Shown: positions 2,374 to 27,344 of the stretch, piece by piece
How positions within the stretch are numbered: position 1 is the first letter of the stretch
Layout: each line of letters begins with the position of its first letter
From: Thermoanaerobacterales bacterium
Lineage (GTDB): Bacteria; Bacillota; Thermosediminibacteria; Thermosediminibacterales; Tepidanaerobacteraceae
Length of the DNA stretch: 64,000 nucleotides
Assembly: GCA_012840135.1 (NCBI GenBank)
Contig: DUMA01000015.1
Location: forward strand, 1-64,000
Reading direction: 5' to 3'
Translations under genes and position numbers: made by a program
The notes under the pieces: generated by a model
The model's input: the letters and a program-made list of their open reading frames with translations, nothing else
What the model was told of the DNA's origin: nothing
Databases searched by the model: none

Positions 2374-4410
2374 ATGACAGGAAAACTTAATGGAAGCTTG
2401 CGTATGAAAATGACCATACTATTCGGGCTGATCGTCCTGATAGGGTGCCTGGTGTTGTTTTTTGTAAGTGAAAACCAAGCCGGGAGAGCCCTGGAGGCTG
2501 AAGCCAAAGAGGCTATGCTGAAAGTGGCAAAGCAGGTTGCTGCGACTCAGGACAGCCGCAATCAAATGCGCATTTATACGGTTGAATCCCTAGCCAACAG
2601 GAACGTCATCCGGGGTATTCAGGGAGACCGCGAGGCCACTCTGGAGGAAAAGATGAAGGCACTGAGCGATGAAGTAAAAAGAGCAGAGAGCCAGGGGTTC
2701 AAGCGGTTTGGCATTGCCGACAAAAACGGTGAAATAATTTACCACGACGGTAGCAAGGCCAATATTGCCGACAGGGACTACTTCAAGGCGGCCCTGGGAG
2801 GAAAGACATTTGTTTCCACCAGTATTGTCAGCAAAGTCGATAATTCGGTCGTGTTCATTTATGCCACCCCTATTTACCACTATGCAACCAATGAGATAAT
2901 TGGTGTGTTGACTGGCACGGTCGATGGGGCGAAGTTCAGCGAGTTAGTGGGCAGCATTACCTACGCCCGCACGGGCTATGCCTTCGCCGTGGACAGCACG
3001 GGCAAGACCATAGCCCATAAGGACGCAGAAAGGGTGACAGGCCAGGAAAACATCATAGAACTGGCCAAATCCAACCAGTCACTGTCACCTCTGGCCGGGG
3101 TAATTTCTAAAATGGCAAATGGCGAAGAAGGAATAGCGACCTACACTTTCCAGGGTCAGAAGAGGATCATTGCTTATGCTCCCATTATGACTGCTGGATG
3201 GGCCATAGCAGTCACTGCTCCCAGCGCCGAGGTATTGGAGAGGGCTACAGGTCTTAGACAGTCCGTGCTGCTCGTATCCAGCCTGATAATCCTCGTTGCT
3301 CTGGTTCTTACATTCATAATGGCCAAAACCATTACAGCACCCCTTGTGCTAGCCGTCGACCACCTGGGGCTCATAGCCGGCGGTGACTTCACGCGGCCGG
3401 TGCCGGAAGTGTTCCTGCGCCGTAAAGACGAGATAGGCAAACTGGTCCATGCCATTGATAAGCTCCAGGCGAACCTCAGACCGCTGCTTTCGAGCCTTAG
3501 AGAAGATGCAAAAACCCTGTCCGGTAATTCCGAAACCCTAAGCGCGACATCTGAAGAGATTGCCTCATCTTCCGGCGAAGTGGCCAATGCCATCCAACAA
3601 GTAGCCTCGGGAGCTTCCGATCAAGCGGGTCATTTGCAGGAGATACTGGACCTCGTCAAGAACATAACGATAAGTCTGGAAAAAGTCTATACCGAACTTG
3701 GCCGTGTTAAGGCCAACAGCGAGGAGACTTCAAAACTAGCCAACACCGGAAAGAAGGAGCTGGATAGTCTCATCGTATCTATTAAAGGTGCTCGTGAGGC
3801 ATTCAAGGTAGTTGTAGAAAGGCTCGATGTGCTTAAAGGTTCAGTCAGCCAGGTGGGAGAGATCCTTGATGTTATTAACGGGATAGCGGACCAGACGAAT
3901 TTGCTGGCCTTAAACGCTGCCATTGAAGCGGCGCGTGCCGGGGAAGCGGGTCGCGGCTTTGCGGTGGTGGCGGATGAAGTAAGAAAACTTGCAGAACAAT
4001 CCCGCATGTCTTCAGACAAGATAAGAGCACTACTGAACAACATAACTTCAGAGACCGAAGAAGTGGTGGCCACCTCAGAAGAAGTATCCGGGCAAGTAAC
4101 CAGCCAGCTGGAGAATGTAGAGCACACCGTTAAGGCCTTTGACAATATACTCGATTCGGTAACAGCGATAACGCCAATGATTGAAGCGACCTATCGTGAA
4201 GTAGACGGCACAGTAAAGGCAAAAGACGCGGTGCTGGACCGGGTCCAGAGCATAAGCTCAGTGGCTGAGGAGACTTCGGCTTCAGCACAGGAGATATCGG
4301 CCTCTGCGGAAGAGCTTTCCGCATCCACCCAGGAGATAGCCGGTAATGCCCAGCAAATCCTGGAAGTAGCTAAGCAGCTTGAGGAACAGGTGGAGCGCTT
4401 CAAGGTGTAA
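2374..4410 (+). CDS. Methyl-accepting chemotaxis protein, Cache-HAMP-MCP type
   Basis: 678-residue transmembrane chemoreceptor. One membrane helix near residues 10-30, a periplasmic-side Cache sensor (about 35-295, with [15 protein letters not shown] and [18 protein letters not shown] typical of dCache folds), a second helix near 297-318, a HAMP linker, then a long cytoplasmic methyl-accepting coiled coil. The signalling tip is clear at about 505-555: the run from [20 protein letters not shown] through [19 protein letters not shown]. It would pass ligand signals to CheA through CheW, the first gene of the cluster. ATG 2374 is chosen because a stop lies upstream in frame; ATG 2404 is an alternative. 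The sensed ligand cannot be read from sequence. Confidence 0.93.
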
Positions 4411-19323: not shown

Positions 19324-19352
19324 TTGACATATGATGATATTTCAATTATTAT
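19324..19352 (+). promoter_or_regulatory. Sigma-A-type promoter of the cobalamin-uptake operon
   Basis: TTGACA (19324-19329), 17-base spacer, TATTAT (19347-19352). It ends about 35 bases before the riboswitch, as expected for a leader transcript. Confidence 0.75.
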
Positions 19353-19543: not shown

Positions 19544-19575
19544 GCAGGATGGGGAAGCGGTCTACCCTGCTTTTT
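19544..19575 (+). terminator. Candidate riboswitch terminator
   Basis: GCAGG (19544-19548) can pair with CCTGC (19566-19570), followed by five T. A further T7 run lies at 19590-19596. It is a plausible expression platform for the B12 riboswitch. From here to 19782 no gene is supported; a short open frame at 19530-19739 overlaps the riboswitch tail and looks spurious. Confidence 0.45.
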
Positions 19576-19782
19576 GTGGAGAGTGGGGTTTTTTTAATTT
19601 TAAAAAAATGATCTGCCAGAAAATGGCCTTATTCTTGCCCATCCTGAAAAAAATGAGGGAAGGGGGGATGAGGCCGTTTTTATTTAATTCTATGGCAAGG
19701 GCGCTAACGGGGAATCATGGAATTTGGGAAATTACTTGACATGACAGACGTAATTTTAAATTGATGAAAGGATGGGGAAAAT

Positions 19783-22353
19783 ATGTCTTTTAAAGGAAAA
19801 AACCGCATAATTTCAATAATACTTATAACCTTTATCTGCATCAGCACTATTACATATCAATTTTTTCCTCAGTGGAAGTCCTTTGCTCTGGCGGCGGAAA
19901 GCACGTATACTGCAAAAGAACTGGCAGATAGAGCTATACAGTTTATTAATGAAAAGTACAAAGCCGGAGAGAAGATAGACGGTTATACCGCCTATGTTCT
20001 GGAATTAGCCGGAGAAGACCTGTCTTCGGAAAAATGGACACGCGATGGAATTTCCCTTCAACAGGAGGTTTTATCGACTGCAGATAATATAACTGTAAAT
20101 AATGCTGTATACAATACAAAGACCATCGCCCAGACGCTGATGGCTCTGAGCCAATGGCAGGATACCGACAGGATGGAGAAGCTGGCAAACATTTTGAAGG
20201 CCCGGCATTCCGCCAATGGTTTTGAAAACAGCGTCTACAGCGACATGTGGGCGTATATCGCCCTGGGAGAGGCGGGGAAGATAGGCGAAATAAGTGCCGA
20301 TGACGCCAAAAAATACATCCTGTCGAAGCAGAGCAAAGCCCAGGGTACCGCTGGAGCCTGGGGAGAGACATGGGAAGTTACTTTTTATCCGGACTTCATG
20401 TCCACAGCTCAGGCCATAAGGGCCCTGTCTTATCTTCCCGGAGCATCAGGCGATGCACAGATACAGGCTGCGATAAACAGCGGCCTTGCATACATGAAAG
20501 CGCAGCTCCAGCCTGATGGCAGCGTGTACACTACAACGCCCTACCCGGACGACCCCGTGGTGGATACCGCGGAGACTATCGTAACACTTGAAAAACTGGA
20601 TATGGACCCGAAAAGCTGGAAGAGCAGCGATGGGAATACACCCGTAGACTACATGCTGAAAAACGCTCTGAATCCGGACGGAAGTTTCGGGTCAATGAAA
20701 AACACTCTGGATGCTGCGGAAGCCCTCAGCGCATTCCTGTTGCTAGAAGGTGAGTCCGATTCCGGCTCCGGAGGAAGCACCGTGCCGGGTACAGTCCAGA
20801 AAAAAATCGAAGTATATATTGCAGTGGTGGGCAAAAACAATGACCTTTTGTTTGCACCCGATTCGGTAACCCTGTCATCTGATGACAAATGGGGCTTGAC
20901 GGCTCTCGGGGCGCTGGATGCCACGGGGCTTGATTATGTGGACGACGACGGCTTTGTGAAAAGCATAGAAGGTCAGGCAAACAGCGGCATGAACGGCTGG
21001 ATGTACAAGGTAAACAACAGCATACCGACCGTCAAGGCTTCGGAGAAGACTCTCAGTGAAGGCGACAGGGTGATATGGTGGTACAGCACGGATTATAGTT
21101 CGAACGGTCCAACGTGGAGCAGCCTGTCCAGCCTCAGCACGGCGACGGTGGAGACCGCTGCTGTTTCTTCGGATCTGAAGGAGCAGAACAAAAAATTGCC
21201 GGAGATGCTGCAGGCCTCTGAAGAAGCGCTTACCGCCTTAGGAAATATAGAGAAAGCACTGGGGTTAAAACAGGACGACAAAAAGCCGCTGGAGGATTTA
21301 AAAAGTGCAGCAGTGGTTGTCCAGGGAGAGAGAAGTTATATAGATATTAATGATTTAAAAGCTCAGAAGTTAAAACTCGACGGCAACAGAGTGGACATTG
21401 AAGATAACGTTACGGCCGGCAATGGGGCGGTGCTGATGGATGCGGGACATGAAGTGGGATTGGTTATACCGGCAGATGCCCTGAGCAAAGATACAAAAAT
21501 ATCCATTCAAGAAGTTGATAATGAGCCGGCCAATAAGGATGCAGACGAAAGTTTAAAGAAGATGCCTCAGGGGTTCGGGCTGGCATCCGGGATATATGAT
21601 TTTGCTCCGGACGGCACCATTTTTAAAACTCCTGTGACAATAACTTTGAAGGTAATCCTACCTCCCATAGTAAAGCCGGAGAATGCAAGCCTTGCATGCT
21701 ACGACGAAAAAACCGAGCGGTGGGCGGCTGTTCCCGCTGTGCTGGATTTGAGCAAAAGCCTTGTAATCGCACGGGTAAAACATTTTTCCAAATATGCGGT
21801 AATGATAAAAGACGAGAAGAAATCTTTTACAGATATCGGCGAATCCTTCGCCTGGGCGAAAGACTATATTGAAACCCTGGCCGGAGCAGGCATATTGAGC
21901 GGCGTTGACGGTGCCCGATTTGAACCAGGAAGGCCGGTGACCAGGGCGGAGTTTGTGACAATGCTGCAGAAAGCTATGGGCCTTGCAAAGCCTCAGCAGG
22001 AGACCTCATTTGTCGATGTTGAGAAAGGTGCATGGTATTTTGATGCGGTGCTTGCCGCTTCGGCGGCAGGTCTTATCAGTGGGTACAAAGATGGCACCTT
22101 CCGCCCGAATGATACTATAACCCGTGAGGAAATTTCTGTTATTCTTTCAAGGGCTCTGAAGCTATCCGGGCAAGAACAATCCGGTGATTTTAAAGATAAG
22201 GACAATATATCGTCATGGAGTAAATCTGCAGTATTCGCAGCCGTAGAAAAGGGCCTTTTGAAAGGATATGAAGACGGTACCTTCAGGCCCAAAAATGCGG
22301 TAAACCGTGCCGAATGTGCGGTGCTCATTTACAGGATGCTTGATATGAAATGA
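19783..22353 (+). CDS. S-layer-anchored transcobalamin-like B12-binding protein (prenyltransferase-like barrel + DUF4430 + SLH)
   Basis: 856 residues, exported. Signal peptide to about residue 37 (FALA-AES). Residues ~40-325 are an alpha/alpha-barrel of the squalene-cyclase/prenyltransferase type, with repeat motifs such as DTAETIVTLEKLDMDP and TAQAIRALSYLPG. Residues ~340-437 form a DUF4430 (transcobalamin-like C-terminal) domain ending in MNGWMYKVNN...GDRVIWWYSTD. A helical linker (~445-545) and a ZU5-like beta domain (~546-672) follow. Three SLH repeats (~682-856) anchor it to the cell wall. Barrel plus DUF4430 is the domain order of animal intrinsic factor and transcobalamin. The cobalamin riboswitch upstream and the ECF transporter downstream support B12 capture. 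Direct binding is inference. Confidence 0.88.
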   Translation: MSFKGKNRIISIILITFICISTITYQFFPQWKSFALAAESTYTAKELADRAIQFINEKYKAGEKIDGYTAYVLELAGEDLSSEKWTRDGISLQQEVLSTADNITVNNAVYNTKTIAQTLMALSQWQDTDRMEKLANILKARHSANGFENSVYSDMWAYIALGEAGKIGEISADDAKKYILSKQSKAQGTAGAWGETWEVTFYPDFMSTAQAIRALSYLPGASGDAQIQAAINSGLAYMKAQLQPDGSVYTTTPYPDDPVVDTAETIVTLEKLDMDPKSWKSSDGNTPVDYMLKNALNPDGSFGSMKNTLDAAEALSAFLLLEGESDSGSGGSTVPGTVQKKIEVYIAVVGKNNDLLFAPDSVTLSSDDKWGLTALGALDATGLDYVDDDGFVKSIEGQANSGMNGWMYKVNNSIPTVKASEKTLSEGDRVIWWYSTDYSSNGPTWSSLSSLSTATVETAAVSSDLKEQNKKLPEMLQASEEALTALGNIEKALGLKQDDKKPLEDLKSAAVVVQGERSYIDINDLKAQKLKLDGNRVDIEDNVTAGNGAVLMDAGHEVGLVIPADALSKDTKISIQEVDNEPANKDADESLKKMPQGFGLASGIYDFAPDGTIFKTPVTITLKVILPPIVKPENASLACYDEKTERWAAVPAVLDLSKSLVIARVKHFSKYAVMIKDEKKSFTDIGESFAWAKDYIETLAGAGILSGVDGARFEPGRPVTRAEFVTMLQKAMGLAKPQQETSFVDVEKGAWYFDAVLAASAAGLISGYKDGTFRPNDTITREEISVILSRALKLSGQEQSGDFKDKDNISSWSKSAVFAAVEKGLLKGYEDGTFRPKNAVNRAECAVLIYRMLDMK

Positions 22354-23186
22354 AGAAAACAGTTTATATACTGATTTTTGTTGCGATACTGCTGGGTTTA
22401 ATCGGTCCCCTGGCATTATCGGGTATAACTTCCGACAGAAGCCAGAAATCAAGCCTTTTGGAACAGAAGGCAATGCAGGTGGCGGGAAGCCTGGACAATC
22501 CCATGGGAAACCATGTAAAAAAAGGCTCCGGGCAAATTTCTGCCTTCGGCGGTTCGGCTCAGGAGCAAAGTCAAACAAATATTTCCCGGGAAAAGGATAA
22601 CGCCCAGGTTTGTCCTCCATCGGGGGGAATTGGTTTTGATAAAGGCGTGGACGAAACAAATTCCGATTCCCCGAAGGATTCCCCGGACAAAAACGACACT
22701 CAAAAAAATGCCCGGCCAGGCTCTCGAGAAATGGCGGATAAAAATGAGGATGACAATAAAAATACCGCCACGGTTTATGAGAAGAACGAAAGAAAAGATG
22801 GCACTTCCCCGAATGACGGTGCGGCGGAACCGGAAAAAGGCACGGAGGTTAGCCTGGCTATAGTGGGTGCCAGCGGGAAAATAATATTCGGACCCGGCAA
22901 AGTGATTATAAAAGATGACAACAAATGGGGCGCCACGGCACTGGGCGCCCTGGACGCTTCAGGCGTAGAATACAGGATAAGCTCCAGATTCGCCGGATTT
23001 GTGGAAAGTATTGCCGGCGAGTCCAATGAAGGAATGAAGGGCTGGATGTATAAAGTAAATGACCTGGTTCCGATGACCGCAGCGGGCGATATGAAACTTA
23101 CGGCGGGCGACAGGGTGCTGTGGTGGTACAGCGAGGGCCTGGACAAGGCGCCTCCCGAATGGGATGAGCTTGAAAAAACCCCGTAA
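22350..23186 (+). CDS. Membrane-tethered DUF4430 (transcobalamin C-domain-like) protein
   Basis: 278 residues. One N-terminal helix (about 4-24) is followed by a long charged, low-complexity linker (~30-160, rich in D, K, N, P) and one DUF4430 domain (~165-262) closely resembling that of the preceding gene: VSLAIVGASGKIIFGPGKV, KWGATALGALDASG, MKGWMYKVND, GDRVLWWYSEG. The ATG overlaps the previous stop (ATGA). I infer a short-range shuttle that hands cobalamin from the S-layer protein to the transporter below it. Confidence 0.85.
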   Translation: MKKTVYILIFVAILLGLIGPLALSGITSDRSQKSSLLEQKAMQVAGSLDNPMGNHVKKGSGQISAFGGSAQEQSQTNISREKDNAQVCPPSGGIGFDKGVDETNSDSPKDSPDKNDTQKNARPGSREMADKNEDDNKNTATVYEKNERKDGTSPNDGAAEPEKGTEVSLAIVGASGKIIFGPGKVIIKDDNKWGATALGALDASGVEYRISSRFAGFVESIAGESNEGMKGWMYKVNDLVPMTAAGDMKLTAGDRVLWWYSEGLDKAPPEWDELEKTP

Positions 23187-23198
23187 GGCGGAGAGAAT

Positions 23199-24116
23199 AT
23201 GATGGAAGAACTGTTCTACCGCGAAAAAGATTTGTTTTTACAGAAACTTCATCCGACTGCAGCTATGGTCTTTATATGTGTATTGATGGTGCTTTCACTG
23301 ATATTTACAAACCCGCTTTATCTTGCGGGACTTTTTCTCTGCACGGGATTTTTGATAAGGGAACTGCAAGGTTTGAAGTCCTGGGAGTTTTTTTTAAAAG
23401 CCGGTTTGCTGATGACGATCCCGGTCATGATAATAAATCCGCTGGTGTCAAAAGCCGGAGCCACCGTGCTATTGCGGGGCCCACGCCTGCCTGCCTTCGG
23501 AGAAATAGATATATCAATGGAGGCAATTTTTTACGGTGCTGTGATGAGCTTGAGACTTCTGGATGTGATGAGTGTTTTCTGCCTTTACAATATAATGTTG
23601 CATCCGGATAAAACGCTTAATATGCTGGAGAGGTTTGCCTTTAAATCAACTCTTGTGCTGTCTTTAGCCACCAGGATGTTCCCGGCGATGTTGAGGCGCC
23701 TCGAGAATATAAGAGAAATACAGGCAGTCAGGGGAGTGGATTTTGAAAAAGGTACTTTTAAAGAGGTACTGGATAAATATATGAATCTGATATACATACT
23801 TCTCCTGTCTTCCCTGGAAGATTCTATGGAAATAGCTGAAGCCATGCAGGCCAGGGCTTTCGGCAGCGGAAGACGGACGTGCTACATTCGGATTCCCTTC
23901 AAACCCAGAGATTTTATCTGCACTGCAGCAGGTATCGCAGCTCTTTTTGCCGGCATATTCGGTGCCGTGAAAGGATACGGTACCATGGTTTTCTATCCAT
24001 ATCTGGGGCACTTAATTTCCCGGGAGGACATACTTCTGCTGTTGTTTTTGCATATGATGCTTTTGATTCCTGTATTTATGAGCTGGGGGTGGCGCCGTTG
24101 CCGCTATTTCAGGTGA
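23199..24116 (+). CDS. ecfT: ECF transporter T component (CbiQ/EcfT family)
   Basis: 305-residue membrane scaffold of an energy-coupling-factor importer. About five to six helices; the coupling-helix region carries SLATRMFPAMLRRLENIREIQ with RG after it, and EAMQARAFGSGRRT, the two conserved Ala-Arg-Gly-like motifs that contact the ATPases. Start ATG 23199 or the next codon at 23202; GGCGGAGAG lies upstream. Confidence 0.9.
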   Translation: MMEELFYREKDLFLQKLHPTAAMVFICVLMVLSLIFTNPLYLAGLFLCTGFLIRELQGLKSWEFFLKAGLLMTIPVMIINPLVSKAGATVLLRGPRLPAFGEIDISMEAIFYGAVMSLRLLDVMSVFCLYNIMLHPDKTLNMLERFAFKSTLVLSLATRMFPAMLRRLENIREIQAVRGVDFEKGTFKEVLDKYMNLIYILLLSSLEDSMEIAEAMQARAFGSGRRTCYIRIPFKPRDFICTAAGIAALFAGIFGAVKGYGTMVFYPYLGHLISREDILLLLFLHMMLLIPVFMSWGWRRCRYFR

Positions 24117-25852
24117 GAGATCTGCATTATTATTATCCGGAAAGCGAAAAACCGGCGTTGAAAGGGATAAATATTTCGGTTGAAGAAGGGGAATTTGTAC
24201 TGGTGACCGGTGGGTCGGGCTCCGGCAAGTCAACCCTTGCCCGGGCTCTGGCAGGACTTGTGCCGGATTTTTACGGAGGAGTATTCAGGGGGGAGGTCCT
24301 TTTCAGGGGTCGGAATATACGCTGCATGGATCGGAGAAAGCTTTACAGGCATGTGGGCATGGTTTTTCAGGACCCGGAAAAACAACTCGTAAAAACCGAA
24401 GCGGAAGCGGAAATTGCTTTCGGCCTTGAAAACCTTGGCCTTCCGCAGCAGGAAATGTTCCGGCGGGTGGCCGAGGTCATGGATTTTCTTGACCTTAAAG
24501 AGACAAAAGGGAGGTTTGTAGATAAACTTTCGGGAGGCCAGAAACAAAAAATCGCTCTTGCATCGGTTCTGGCCATGCAGCCGGAAGCGATAATTCTTGA
24601 TGAACCCACATCCCAGCTGGATCCGGCCAGTGCGGAAGAACTTTTGAATTTAATAAAGCGCCTCAATGAAGAAATGGGGAAGACTATAGTTCTCGTAGAG
24701 CAGAGGCTGGAAAGATGCTTTCACATGGCCGACAGGGTTGCGATAATGAAAGACGGGGAATTGACGATCGAAGGAACACCCCGGGACGTTGCCGCAAAAA
24801 GCATTGCCTGCGGCATACATTTTATACCTCCGGTGACACGTTTTTTTACAGAAATGGGTTTTTCCCGTATTCCGATTACCGTAAAAGAAGGGCGAAGAAT
24901 TCTGAAGGAAAATATTCCCCAGCAGGATAGCGATGCGGAACCGATCCAGTCGACGGATTTTAGCAAGTCAAAACAAATAGATAACGGCTGCTGTCCAGAT
25001 CCTGCATCGCTGATGCGGCCAGATTTTGACAGGAATGCCGGTGCGATCCTGGAATTAAAAAATGTCTGGTTTTCCTACAAAGATAAGGAAAATGTGCTGC
25101 AGGAGATAAATCTGGAGATTTTTCCGGGAGAATTTTTGGCTATCCTGGGCGCCAACGGCGCCGGCAAGTCCACCCTACTAAAAATAATGTCAGGCCTTTT
25201 GGTTCCGGACAGGGGAAGGGTGCTGTTTTGTGGGAATGAATGCGGTAAAAAAAGGGAAGTTTACAGATGCGGAAAGGTGGCATACCTTTCACAGAACCCA
25301 AACGACTATCTTTTTCAGGACACCGTGGAACAGGAGCTTTGCTTTACGCTGAAAAATTTCGGTATTCCCGACGGAGGAAGAATAGATAGAATTCTGGACA
25401 AGCTGGATTTGAAGCAGCATAAAAACAAAAACCCAAGGGATCTGAGCAGCGGGGAAAGACAGAGGGTGGCGCTGGCTTCTGTTCTGGTGATAGAACCGGT
25501 ACTTGTCCTTCTTGATGAGCCTACACGAGGAATGGACTACGGCCTCAAGGCTGCCCTTGGGACATGTCTTGCAGAGCTTGATGGAAAAAAGTTGAGCATT
25601 GTCATGGTGACCCATGATGTGGAATTTGCCGCAGAACACGCAAAAAGAGTGATAATACTGCATGACGGAAAGATTGCCAGCGACGGACCTGCAGAACATG
25701 TCCTCGGAAATTCCATATATTATTCTACGCAGATGGCCCGCATGTGCAAGGGTTTTGCCAGAAATATCCTTACGGTGGAAGATGCTATAAAAAGGCTGGG
25801 CCCTGTGCTTACGCAAAATCGTCAGGCTTTTACGGAAAGGGGTTCGGGGTGA
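24098..25852 (+). CDS. ecfA: ECF transporter fused dual ATPase (A-A')
   Basis: 584 residues holding two ABC ATPase domains in one chain, replacing the usual EcfA/EcfA' pair. Domain 1: Walker A TGGSGSGKSTLA near 37-47, signature LSGGQKQKIALAS, Walker B AIILDEPTSQLDP. Domain 2: LGANGAGKSTLLK, signature LSSGERQRVALASV, LVLLDEPTRGMDY. The start is TTG 24098, inside the end of ecfT, with GGGGGTGG upstream; an open frame from 23879 is an overlap with ecfT and is rejected. It energises uptake of the vitamin bound by the S component. Confidence 0.92.
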   Translation: MPLFQVRDLHYYYPESEKPALKGINISVEEGEFVLVTGGSGSGKSTLARALAGLVPDFYGGVFRGEVLFRGRNIRCMDRRKLYRHVGMVFQDPEKQLVKTEAEAEIAFGLENLGLPQQEMFRRVAEVMDFLDLKETKGRFVDKLSGGQKQKIALASVLAMQPEAIILDEPTSQLDPASAEELLNLIKRLNEEMGKTIVLVEQRLERCFHMADRVAIMKDGELTIEGTPRDVAAKSIACGIHFIPPVTRFFTEMGFSRIPITVKEGRRILKENIPQQDSDAEPIQSTDFSKSKQIDNGCCPDPASLMRPDFDRNAGAILELKNVWFSYKDKENVLQEINLEIFPGEFLAILGANGAGKSTLLKIMSGLLVPDRGRVLFCGNECGKKREVYRCGKVAYLSQNPNDYLFQDTVEQELCFTLKNFGIPDGGRIDRILDKLDLKQHKNKNPRDLSSGERQRVALASVLVIEPVLVLLDEPTRGMDYGLKAALGTCLAELDGKKLSIVMVTHDVEFAAEHAKRVIILHDGKIASDGPAEHVLGNSIYYSTQMARMCKGFARNILTVEDAIKRLGPVLTQNRQAFTERGSG

Positions 25853-25853
25853 T

Positions 25854-26477
25854 ATGGCATCCACCGCCATTGCAATTTTTTTGCTTGGCATTATGTGGCT
25901 GAGCTTTGAATTCGGCATGACATCTTCTAAAGAATTGGCGATCATTGCCGTAATGTCTGCAGTGGCAGCCATGGGCAGGGTGGTCTTCGCCGCCCTGCCC
26001 AACATTCAGGCCACCACCTTCGTTGTGATAGTTTCGGGTTTTGTAATGGGTTCAAGGAACGGATTTATGGTGGGAGCCGCATCCGCCCTGGTGTCAAATT
26101 TTTTCATGGGCCAGGGACCGTGGACTTTCTGGCAGATGCTATCATGGGGCCTTGCGGGAGCCTCAGCCGGTGTCTTAAAAAAGGTTTTCCCTAACATTGG
26201 CAAAGCAGGCATGACCGTTTTTTGCCTTTTGTGGGGGTATTTTTTTGGGTGGATCATGAATTTCTGGTACTGGTCTGCTTTTATAAAACCACTCAGCTTG
26301 AAGTCCTTTATAACGGTATGCCTTGCAAGCTTCTGGTTCGACAGCCTGCATGCCGCCGGCAATGCAATCCTGTATCTTTTATTTGGCATTACCTTTACAA
26401 AAGTACTGAAGCGTTTCTACCGGAGATTAAAAGTATCAGAGGGTCGATCGGGACTGAAAAAAAGCACTACTTGTTGA
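25854..26477 (+). CDS. ECF transporter S component, probable cobalamin-specific (CbrT-like)
   Basis: 207 residues, about six helices. SSKELAIIAVMSAVAAMGRVVFAALPNIQATTFVVIVSGF is the typical ECF-S opening (alanine-rich helix 1 and the N-Q-T-F site), and GQGPWTFWQMLSWGLAGASAGVL follows. It starts one base after the ATPase stop. Together with the B12 riboswitch and the transcobalamin-like genes this points to a cobalamin S component of the CbrT kind. Substrate assignment rests on regulation and context. Confidence 0.8.
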   Translation: MASTAIAIFLLGIMWLSFEFGMTSSKELAIIAVMSAVAAMGRVVFAALPNIQATTFVVIVSGFVMGSRNGFMVGAASALVSNFFMGQGPWTFWQMLSWGLAGASAGVLKKVFPNIGKAGMTVFCLLWGYFFGWIMNFWYWSAFIKPLSLKSFITVCLASFWFDSLHAAGNAILYLLFGITFTKVLKRFYRRLKVSEGRSGLKKSTTC

Positions 26478-26607: not shown

Positions 26608-26991
26608 TTGTTGATTTCTAGAATAATCGTAGTAGGAATAGGAAGCTTTATAGGAGGCATCCTACGATATCTCATTTCCGGCTGGGCGGCAGAATTGATT
26701 GGAACAGATTTCCCCTACGGAACACTTATAGTAAACACAGTAGGATGTTTTATCATGAGTTTTGTTATAATATTCGGAGCCGAGATGGGCAACATAGATG
26801 TTAATATGAGACTTTTCTTAACTACAGGTGTCATGGGCGCCTTAACGACATTTTCTACATTCTCTTTCGAAACCTTTCAATTTTTACGGGAAGAAAATTT
26901 ATTCCTGGCAGGGACTAATATATTTTTAAATCTTTTCCTCGGGCTCCTGGCCGTATGGTTTGGTCTTATTGTTGCCAGAATGATAGTTTAG
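26608..26991 (+). CDS. crcB: Fluoride channel CrcB/Fluc
   Basis: 127 residues, four helices. Fluc hallmarks are present: GSFIGGILRYLIS, YGTLIVNTVGCFIMSF with the pore asparagine, and TTGVMGALTTFSTFSFE with the conserved phenylalanines. It exports toxic fluoride as a dual-topology dimer. A TTG start (26608, or the next codon) lies behind a weak GGTGGTG. Confidence 0.93.
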   Translation: MLISRIIVVGIGSFIGGILRYLISGWAAELIGTDFPYGTLIVNTVGCFIMSFVIIFGAEMGNIDVNMRLFLTTGVMGALTTFSTFSFETFQFLREENLFLAGTNIFLNLFLGLLAVWFGLIVARMIV

Positions 26992-27002
26992 GGGGAGTTT
27001 TT

Positions 27003-27344
27003 GTGAAAATGCAGGGCAAAGGCAAAATGCTAAAGATTTTCATTGGAGAATCGGACAAATGGCATGGAGAGCCCCTGTTTCATGCTATAGTTAAACTCAT
27101 CAAGAAGGAGGGCATGGCGGGAGTCACGGTCTATCGGGGCATCGAAGGTTTCGGCGCTAACAGCCGCATCCACAGCACCCAGATTCTCCGATTGTCCGAA
27201 GACTTGCCGGTGGTGCTGGAGGTTATAGATATGCCTGAAAGAATTGATTCTCTATTGAACAAGCTCAATGACATAATAAAAGAAGGACTAATGGTAGTCC
27301 TTCAGGATGTGGATATAATAAAATACACTCATTCAACGGAATGA
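27003..27344 (+). CDS. DUF190 (PII-like fold) protein
   Basis: 113 residues from GTG 27003, with GGGGGAG five bases upstream and overlapping the crcB stop. MLKIFIGESDKWHGEPLFHAIVKLIKKEGMAGVTVYRGIEGFG is the DUF190 consensus, a PII-like fold. DUF190 genes commonly sit next to crcB; the role is unknown and may be regulatory. Confidence 0.88.
   Translation: MKMQGKGKMLKIFIGESDKWHGEPLFHAIVKLIKKEGMAGVTVYRGIEGFGANSRIHSTQILRLSEDLPVVLEVIDMPERIDSLLNKLNDIIKEGLMVVLQDVDIIKYTHSTE

Follow-up and report, generated by a model that had tools for sequence, protein, structure and literature searches.

In a 64,000-nt stretch of DNA from a Thermoanaerobacterales bacterium (the window), the gene at 19783–22353 on the + strand very probably encodes a wall-anchored, transcobalamin-like protein that captures corrinoids for an ECF-CbrT vitamin B12 uptake operon, a reading to which we assign a probability of about 0.9. 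The open reading frame is complete, running from an ATG at 19783 to a stop codon that ends at 22353, and its product is a single chain of 856 residues, as stated in a preliminary description made from the letters alone. By presenting the gene as a single protein that description nevertheless understated its setting: a cobalamin riboswitch precedes an operon of five genes, of which this is the first. The B12-carrier architecture proposed there is now supported by a fold match, by the riboswitch and by the CbrT-type ECF operon.

To delimit the domains of the protein, we combined Pfam searches, AlphaFold2 models and fold searches, which gave the order toroid–DUF4430–ZU5 followed by three SLH repeats. 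A predicted signal peptide (residues 1–37, 19783–19893), which the preliminary description also named, was read from the sequence by eye as KGKNR, a hydrophobic stretch and ALA|AES near residue 37; residues 8–26 form a helix in the AlphaFold2 model. It is followed by a single alpha/alpha toroid (residues 38 to ~330, 19894–20772), placed by locus comparison, model and fold search, and by a DUF4430, or transcobalamin-type SLBB, beta-grasp domain (residues 341–436, 20803–21090; E = 3.4e-13, 50.3 bits against a cut-off of 23.8). A linker (residues 437–535, 21091–21387) leads to a ZU5-like beta domain (residues 536–676, 21388–21810; E = 3.6e-05, 24.4 bits against a cut-off of 21.0), for which the full-length model matched an ankyrin ZU5 domain in the PDB (E = 6e-06), and then to the SLH repeats with their TRAE, TREE and NRAE motifs (21811–22341; E = 9.9e-42), which in the same model matched the SLH domain of the S-layer protein Sap (3pyw, TMt 0.85). 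The Pfam HMMs thus recovered the DUF4430, ZU5-like and three SLH domains that had been proposed. The prenyltransferase-like barrel of the preliminary description held as a fold: the toroid of the 856-residue protein had no Pfam match at E 0.1, and an alpha/alpha toroid was found by fold search, together with weak family matches among 14 aligned relatives (squalene-hopene cyclase C in six, Prenyltrans in three). A coiled, helical linker of ~100 residues was not borne out, as the model of this region, mostly of moderate to good confidence, contains separate short helices (445–452, 465–470, 480–487, 489–493 and 522–534) and one short strand. The SLH repeats support the predicted S-layer-type display more strongly than the letters alone allowed, and the 26 SLH repeat matches of the genome, which include other SLH proteins, and its one PF04230 (pyruvyl-transferase-family) gene, a candidate CsaB that would pyruvylate the wall polymer, are consistent with SLH anchoring.

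Structure comparison linked the N-terminal head (residues 38–445, modelled with AlphaFold2 from an alignment of 14 sequences; mean pLDDT 89.5, against 83.4 for the full-length model) to the B12 carriers of animals. Transcobalamin, haptocorrin and intrinsic factor accounted for all of the 15 best PDB matches to the head model (E = 2.5e-10 to 2.6e-08), in alignments of 424–452 columns that take in both the toroid and DUF4430, and B12 carriers again came first when the full-length model was used. The isolated human transcobalamin beta domain (5no0 and 5np4) matched the head model with TMt of 0.70 and 0.72. The orientation of toroid to beta domain differs from that of transcobalamin (overall rmsd 8–23 Å, TM 0.4–0.5), in models that are ligand-free and have an interdomain linker of low confidence. 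Neither phmmer with the 856-residue protein nor a head sequence profile run against PDB chains gave a sequence-level link to transcobalamin; a DUF4430 profile run against the same kind of database returned low-complexity matches of the spacer only, and PF01122 (Cobalamin_bind) had zero matches genome-wide at E 10. From the model we infer that the head is a relative of the animal B12 carriers and a predicted corrinoid binder, so that the protein would work like Cobalamin_bind proteins but falls outside PF01122.

Upstream of the gene lies a full-length cobalamin riboswitch aptamer (RF00174, 19348–19536, + strand; 91.8 bits over model positions 1–189), which ends 246 nt before the start codon. 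At the start of the aptamer, on the same strand, a promoter-like site, TTGACA-17-TATTAT (19324–19352), was found by consensus match only, at 11 of 12 positions. After the aptamer, a terminator-like hairpin of 11 pairs followed by a T run (19564–19596, + strand) is a possible expression platform, and its overall fold is unexceptional against shuffled sequences (z = -1.49). Elsewhere in the window, a c-di-GMP-I riboswitch (263–351) stands shortly upstream of a CheW-like gene (516–986) and a chemoreceptor-like gene (2374–4410), both genes being named by eye.

The four remaining genes of the operon, all on the + strand, overlap or nearly touch. They encode a second DUF4430 protein of 278 residues (22350–23186), with an N-terminal hydrophobic anchor, a low-complexity spacer of ~140 residues and the DUF4430 domain at 22929–23132; a CbiQ/EcfT transmembrane component (23199–24116; PF02361, 5.1e-14); a double CbiO/EcfA ATPase in one chain (24110–25852; identified with Pfam, its start codon uncertain in a frame open from 23879); and a CbrT-like ECF S component (25854–26477; PF12822). 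When compared with the PDB, the S component matched 6fnp_A over residues 27–191, most of its length, with E = 2.6e-09, the next hit being at 0.51. We take 6fnp to be the structure entry of the CbrT study on L. delbrueckii, and this B12-type subunit, together with the riboswitch, strongly supports the predicted role of the 856-residue protein in B12 uptake. Just after the operon, a crcB-type fluoride channel gene is followed by a DUF190 gene (26608–27344); no fluoride riboswitch scored above threshold near these two genes, and two were found in the same-genus relative L056.

To assess conservation, relatives were collected by a scan of genome contigs and by a class-wide search, in which 14 of 26 genomes had DUF4430. 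Sixteen loci besides the window had a toroid–DUF4430 gene together with its upstream DNA (L034, L035, L036, L037, L038, L039, L041, L042, L043, L044, L045, L055, L056, L057, L058 and L059); some records carry two labels (L034/G012, L035/G020 and L041/G023), none occurs twice among the sixteen, and the set includes related species, so the samples are not independent. A cobalamin riboswitch preceded the gene in all sixteen, on the same strand and ~140–780 nt upstream, including L038, where the contig breaks off within the aptamer, leaving a score of 28.1 bits (E = 3.8e-05), below the gathering score of 31.5. L046, with a more divergent toroid part, has one as well. Most of the sixteen loci keep the gene order surface protein, second DUF4430 protein, CbiQ, CbiO, CbrT, L043 and L045 having the head gene and the riboswitch with no adjoining transporter genes; in G004 (L050), a DUF4430–SLH protein with no detected toroid lies more than 5 kb from a riboswitch. 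A plasmid search for the head returned zero matches. Two side observations came from the same loci: a tandem pair of cobalamin riboswitches precedes the operon at L036:6427-6934, L037:4388-4960 and L058:283-695, and one relative's contig (L061–L063, G012:C2) has further DUF4430 matches, seven of them listed, some within very long SLH proteins of up to ~1950 residues outside the B12 operon.

Comparison of these loci revealed variation in both ends of the surface protein. Most relatives carry SLH repeats as the wall anchor; the head proteins of L043, L048 and L049 instead end in PF07833, a copper-amine-oxidase N-terminal-type domain whose C-terminal position suggests that it acts as the anchor, and in L048 and L049 a gene between CbiO and CbrT encodes an extra toroid protein that likewise ends in PF07833. 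Many relatives have two tandem toroids, in proteins of ~1140–1250 residues, and one toroid is found in the window protein, in L056 and in L036, L042 and L044. Against the otherwise closest relative, the two-toroid gene L034:1718-5206, window residues 4–109 matched residues 7–112 at 56% and window residues 112–345 matched residues 417–650 at 91%, so that by sequence comparison the window toroid appears to be the start of the first L034 toroid joined to the rest of the second. This jump at residue ~110, together with a head more alike (91%) than the remaining protein and operon (58–81%), suggests recombination in which a toroid was gained or lost. An assembly artefact was considered, and the single toroid is probably real, because a single-contig genome of the same genus also has one. 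A lipoprotein-type cysteine, as read from the sequences, is present in the second DUF4430 protein of L037, L040, L046, L048, L049, L051, L054 and L058, whereas that of the window has a hydrophobic N terminus only.

The rest of the genome fits a cell that takes up corrinoids. Cobalamin riboswitches occur three times: before the operon described here, before a cluster of BtuF, BtuC, CobU, CobD, CbiB, CobS and CobC, and directly before another ECF S component (L066:12569-13126, − strand), possibly an alpha-ribazole (CblT-type) transporter. A family-by-family search of the genome, estimated to be 99% complete, found neither CbiC nor CbiD, the two families on which the absence of ring synthesis rests, and B12-binding-domain proteins were found. 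Given the missing CbiC and CbiD, the cobinamide-salvage genes and the B12-binding proteins, the cell most likely scavenges corrinoids and does not make the ring. BtuFC constitutes a second import system, so the operon may be non-essential.

One rival concerns which corrinoid is captured: the head would prefer cobinamide, or another precursor or degradation product of this class, to complete cobalamin, with the same surface capture and the same ECF import. The genome encodes CbiB, CobU, CobS and CobC and could finish cobinamide, CbrT of L. delbrueckii takes up cobinamide as well as cobalamin (PMC5997447), and haptocorrin, which is among the best fold matches, is described in PMC3360681 as binding various cobalamin analogues. 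Nothing specific speaks against this reading, and the riboswitch, which senses a cobalamin, does not settle the imported form; we regard it as rather unlikely, at about one chance in four. That the operon imports cobalt ion, leaving the surface protein some other role, is suggested by the names of CbiQ and CbiO, which come from the cobalt transporter, and is very improbable: CbiQ scores 33 bits against a cobalt-specific equivalog cut-off of 111.8, the operon has no CbiM or CbiN, the head is transcobalamin-like, and without CbiC and CbiD cobalt could not feed corrin-ring synthesis; we rejected this reading on the strength of the CbrT-like S component and of the corrin genes that are absent. Equally hard to sustain is the proposal that the toroid is a terpene-cyclase/prenyltransferase-type enzyme or a structural S-layer part and that DUF4430 binds something else, for although relatives gave the weak squalene-hopene cyclase and Prenyltrans matches and the head fold search ranked cyclases and prenyltransferases after the B12 carriers (E ~1e-04), the carriers matched several orders of magnitude better and across both domains, and a cobalamin riboswitch precedes the gene in every relative with upstream DNA.

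For the preferred reading, corrinoid capture for ECF-CbrT import, the following sequence of events can be proposed. At low intracellular cobalamin the riboswitch would stand empty and the operon would be expressed, as is general for riboswitches of this class. The 856-residue protein would be secreted, its SLH repeats would hold it on the secondary cell wall polymer, and its toroid and DUF4430 would close on the corrinoid as in transcobalamin, judging from the fold. From there the ligand may go either directly to CbrT or first to the second DUF4430 protein, which is predicted to be tethered to the membrane, and import would be powered by CbiQ and CbiO. Among the PDB matches, 5np4 is the lone human transcobalamin beta domain solved with bound cyanocobalamin, which indicates that a lone beta domain can bind. 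A two-stage Gram-positive surface relay is conceivable, in which the wall-anchored full binder would hand its ligand to the membrane-tethered lone beta-domain protein and this to CbrT, with wall anchor and toroid number as exchangeable modules; we hold this tentatively, at slightly under even odds. If it is true, this would be an ECF importer with dedicated extracellular binding proteins, which ECF systems are generally described as doing without. How Gram-positive cells gather B12, a large and scarce molecule, at the outside of the membrane ahead of ECF import has been little studied, and the operon is a small system open to experiment whose group has relatives in culture (Moorella and Thermosediminibacter). 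It also links bacterial surface proteins to animal B12 carriers and turns the DUF4430 label into a concrete binding hypothesis.

Several known systems resemble the one described here in part. Human transcobalamin, haptocorrin and intrinsic factor likewise have a toroid followed by a beta-grasp domain, in the same order and at 12–15% identity to the bacterial head, and the ZU5-like and SLH domains are extra in the bacterial protein. ECF-CbrT of Lactobacillus delbrueckii (PMC5997447, 6fnp) is an ECF transporter whose S component is related to the one here; its cbrT gene belongs to the cluster nrdJ-cbrS-cbrT-pduO, and other S components use its ECF module too, whereas here the S component shares an operon with surface binders and the operon has its own CbiQ and CbiO. 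The surface-exposed lipoproteins of Bacteroides (PMC6143338; BtuG) work alike in capturing B12 for the cell's own importer; they are Gram-negative lipoproteins, unlike the SLH-anchored protein here, and the likeness is functional. The closest precedent is a prediction: Burroughs et al. 2007 (PMC1796856) proposed toroid–SLBB proteins of Gram-positive bacteria as B12 scavengers, naming a toroid fusion from Desulfotomaculum and an SLBB protein from Moorella. As here, those proteins combine an alpha/alpha toroid with a transcobalamin-type SLBB domain and have a second SLBB protein as well as CbiO and CbiQ genes in the operon; they are described as secreted, a fate predicted for the protein here from its putative signal peptide. 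Their hosts usually lack B12 synthesis, in keeping with the absence of CbiC and CbiD here. The text of that paper, figures and supplements aside, contains neither 'S-layer' or 'SLH' nor 'riboswitch', both of which are found here, and its passages on these proteins do not name the CbrT-type S component. No experimental study of a toroid–SLBB protein was found in the open-access literature, a search that left most subscription papers outside its reach, and the 856-residue protein therefore belongs to a kind predicted in 2007. To that prediction our analysis adds the riboswitch, CbrT, possibly exchangeable wall anchors, and one-toroid as well as two-toroid forms.
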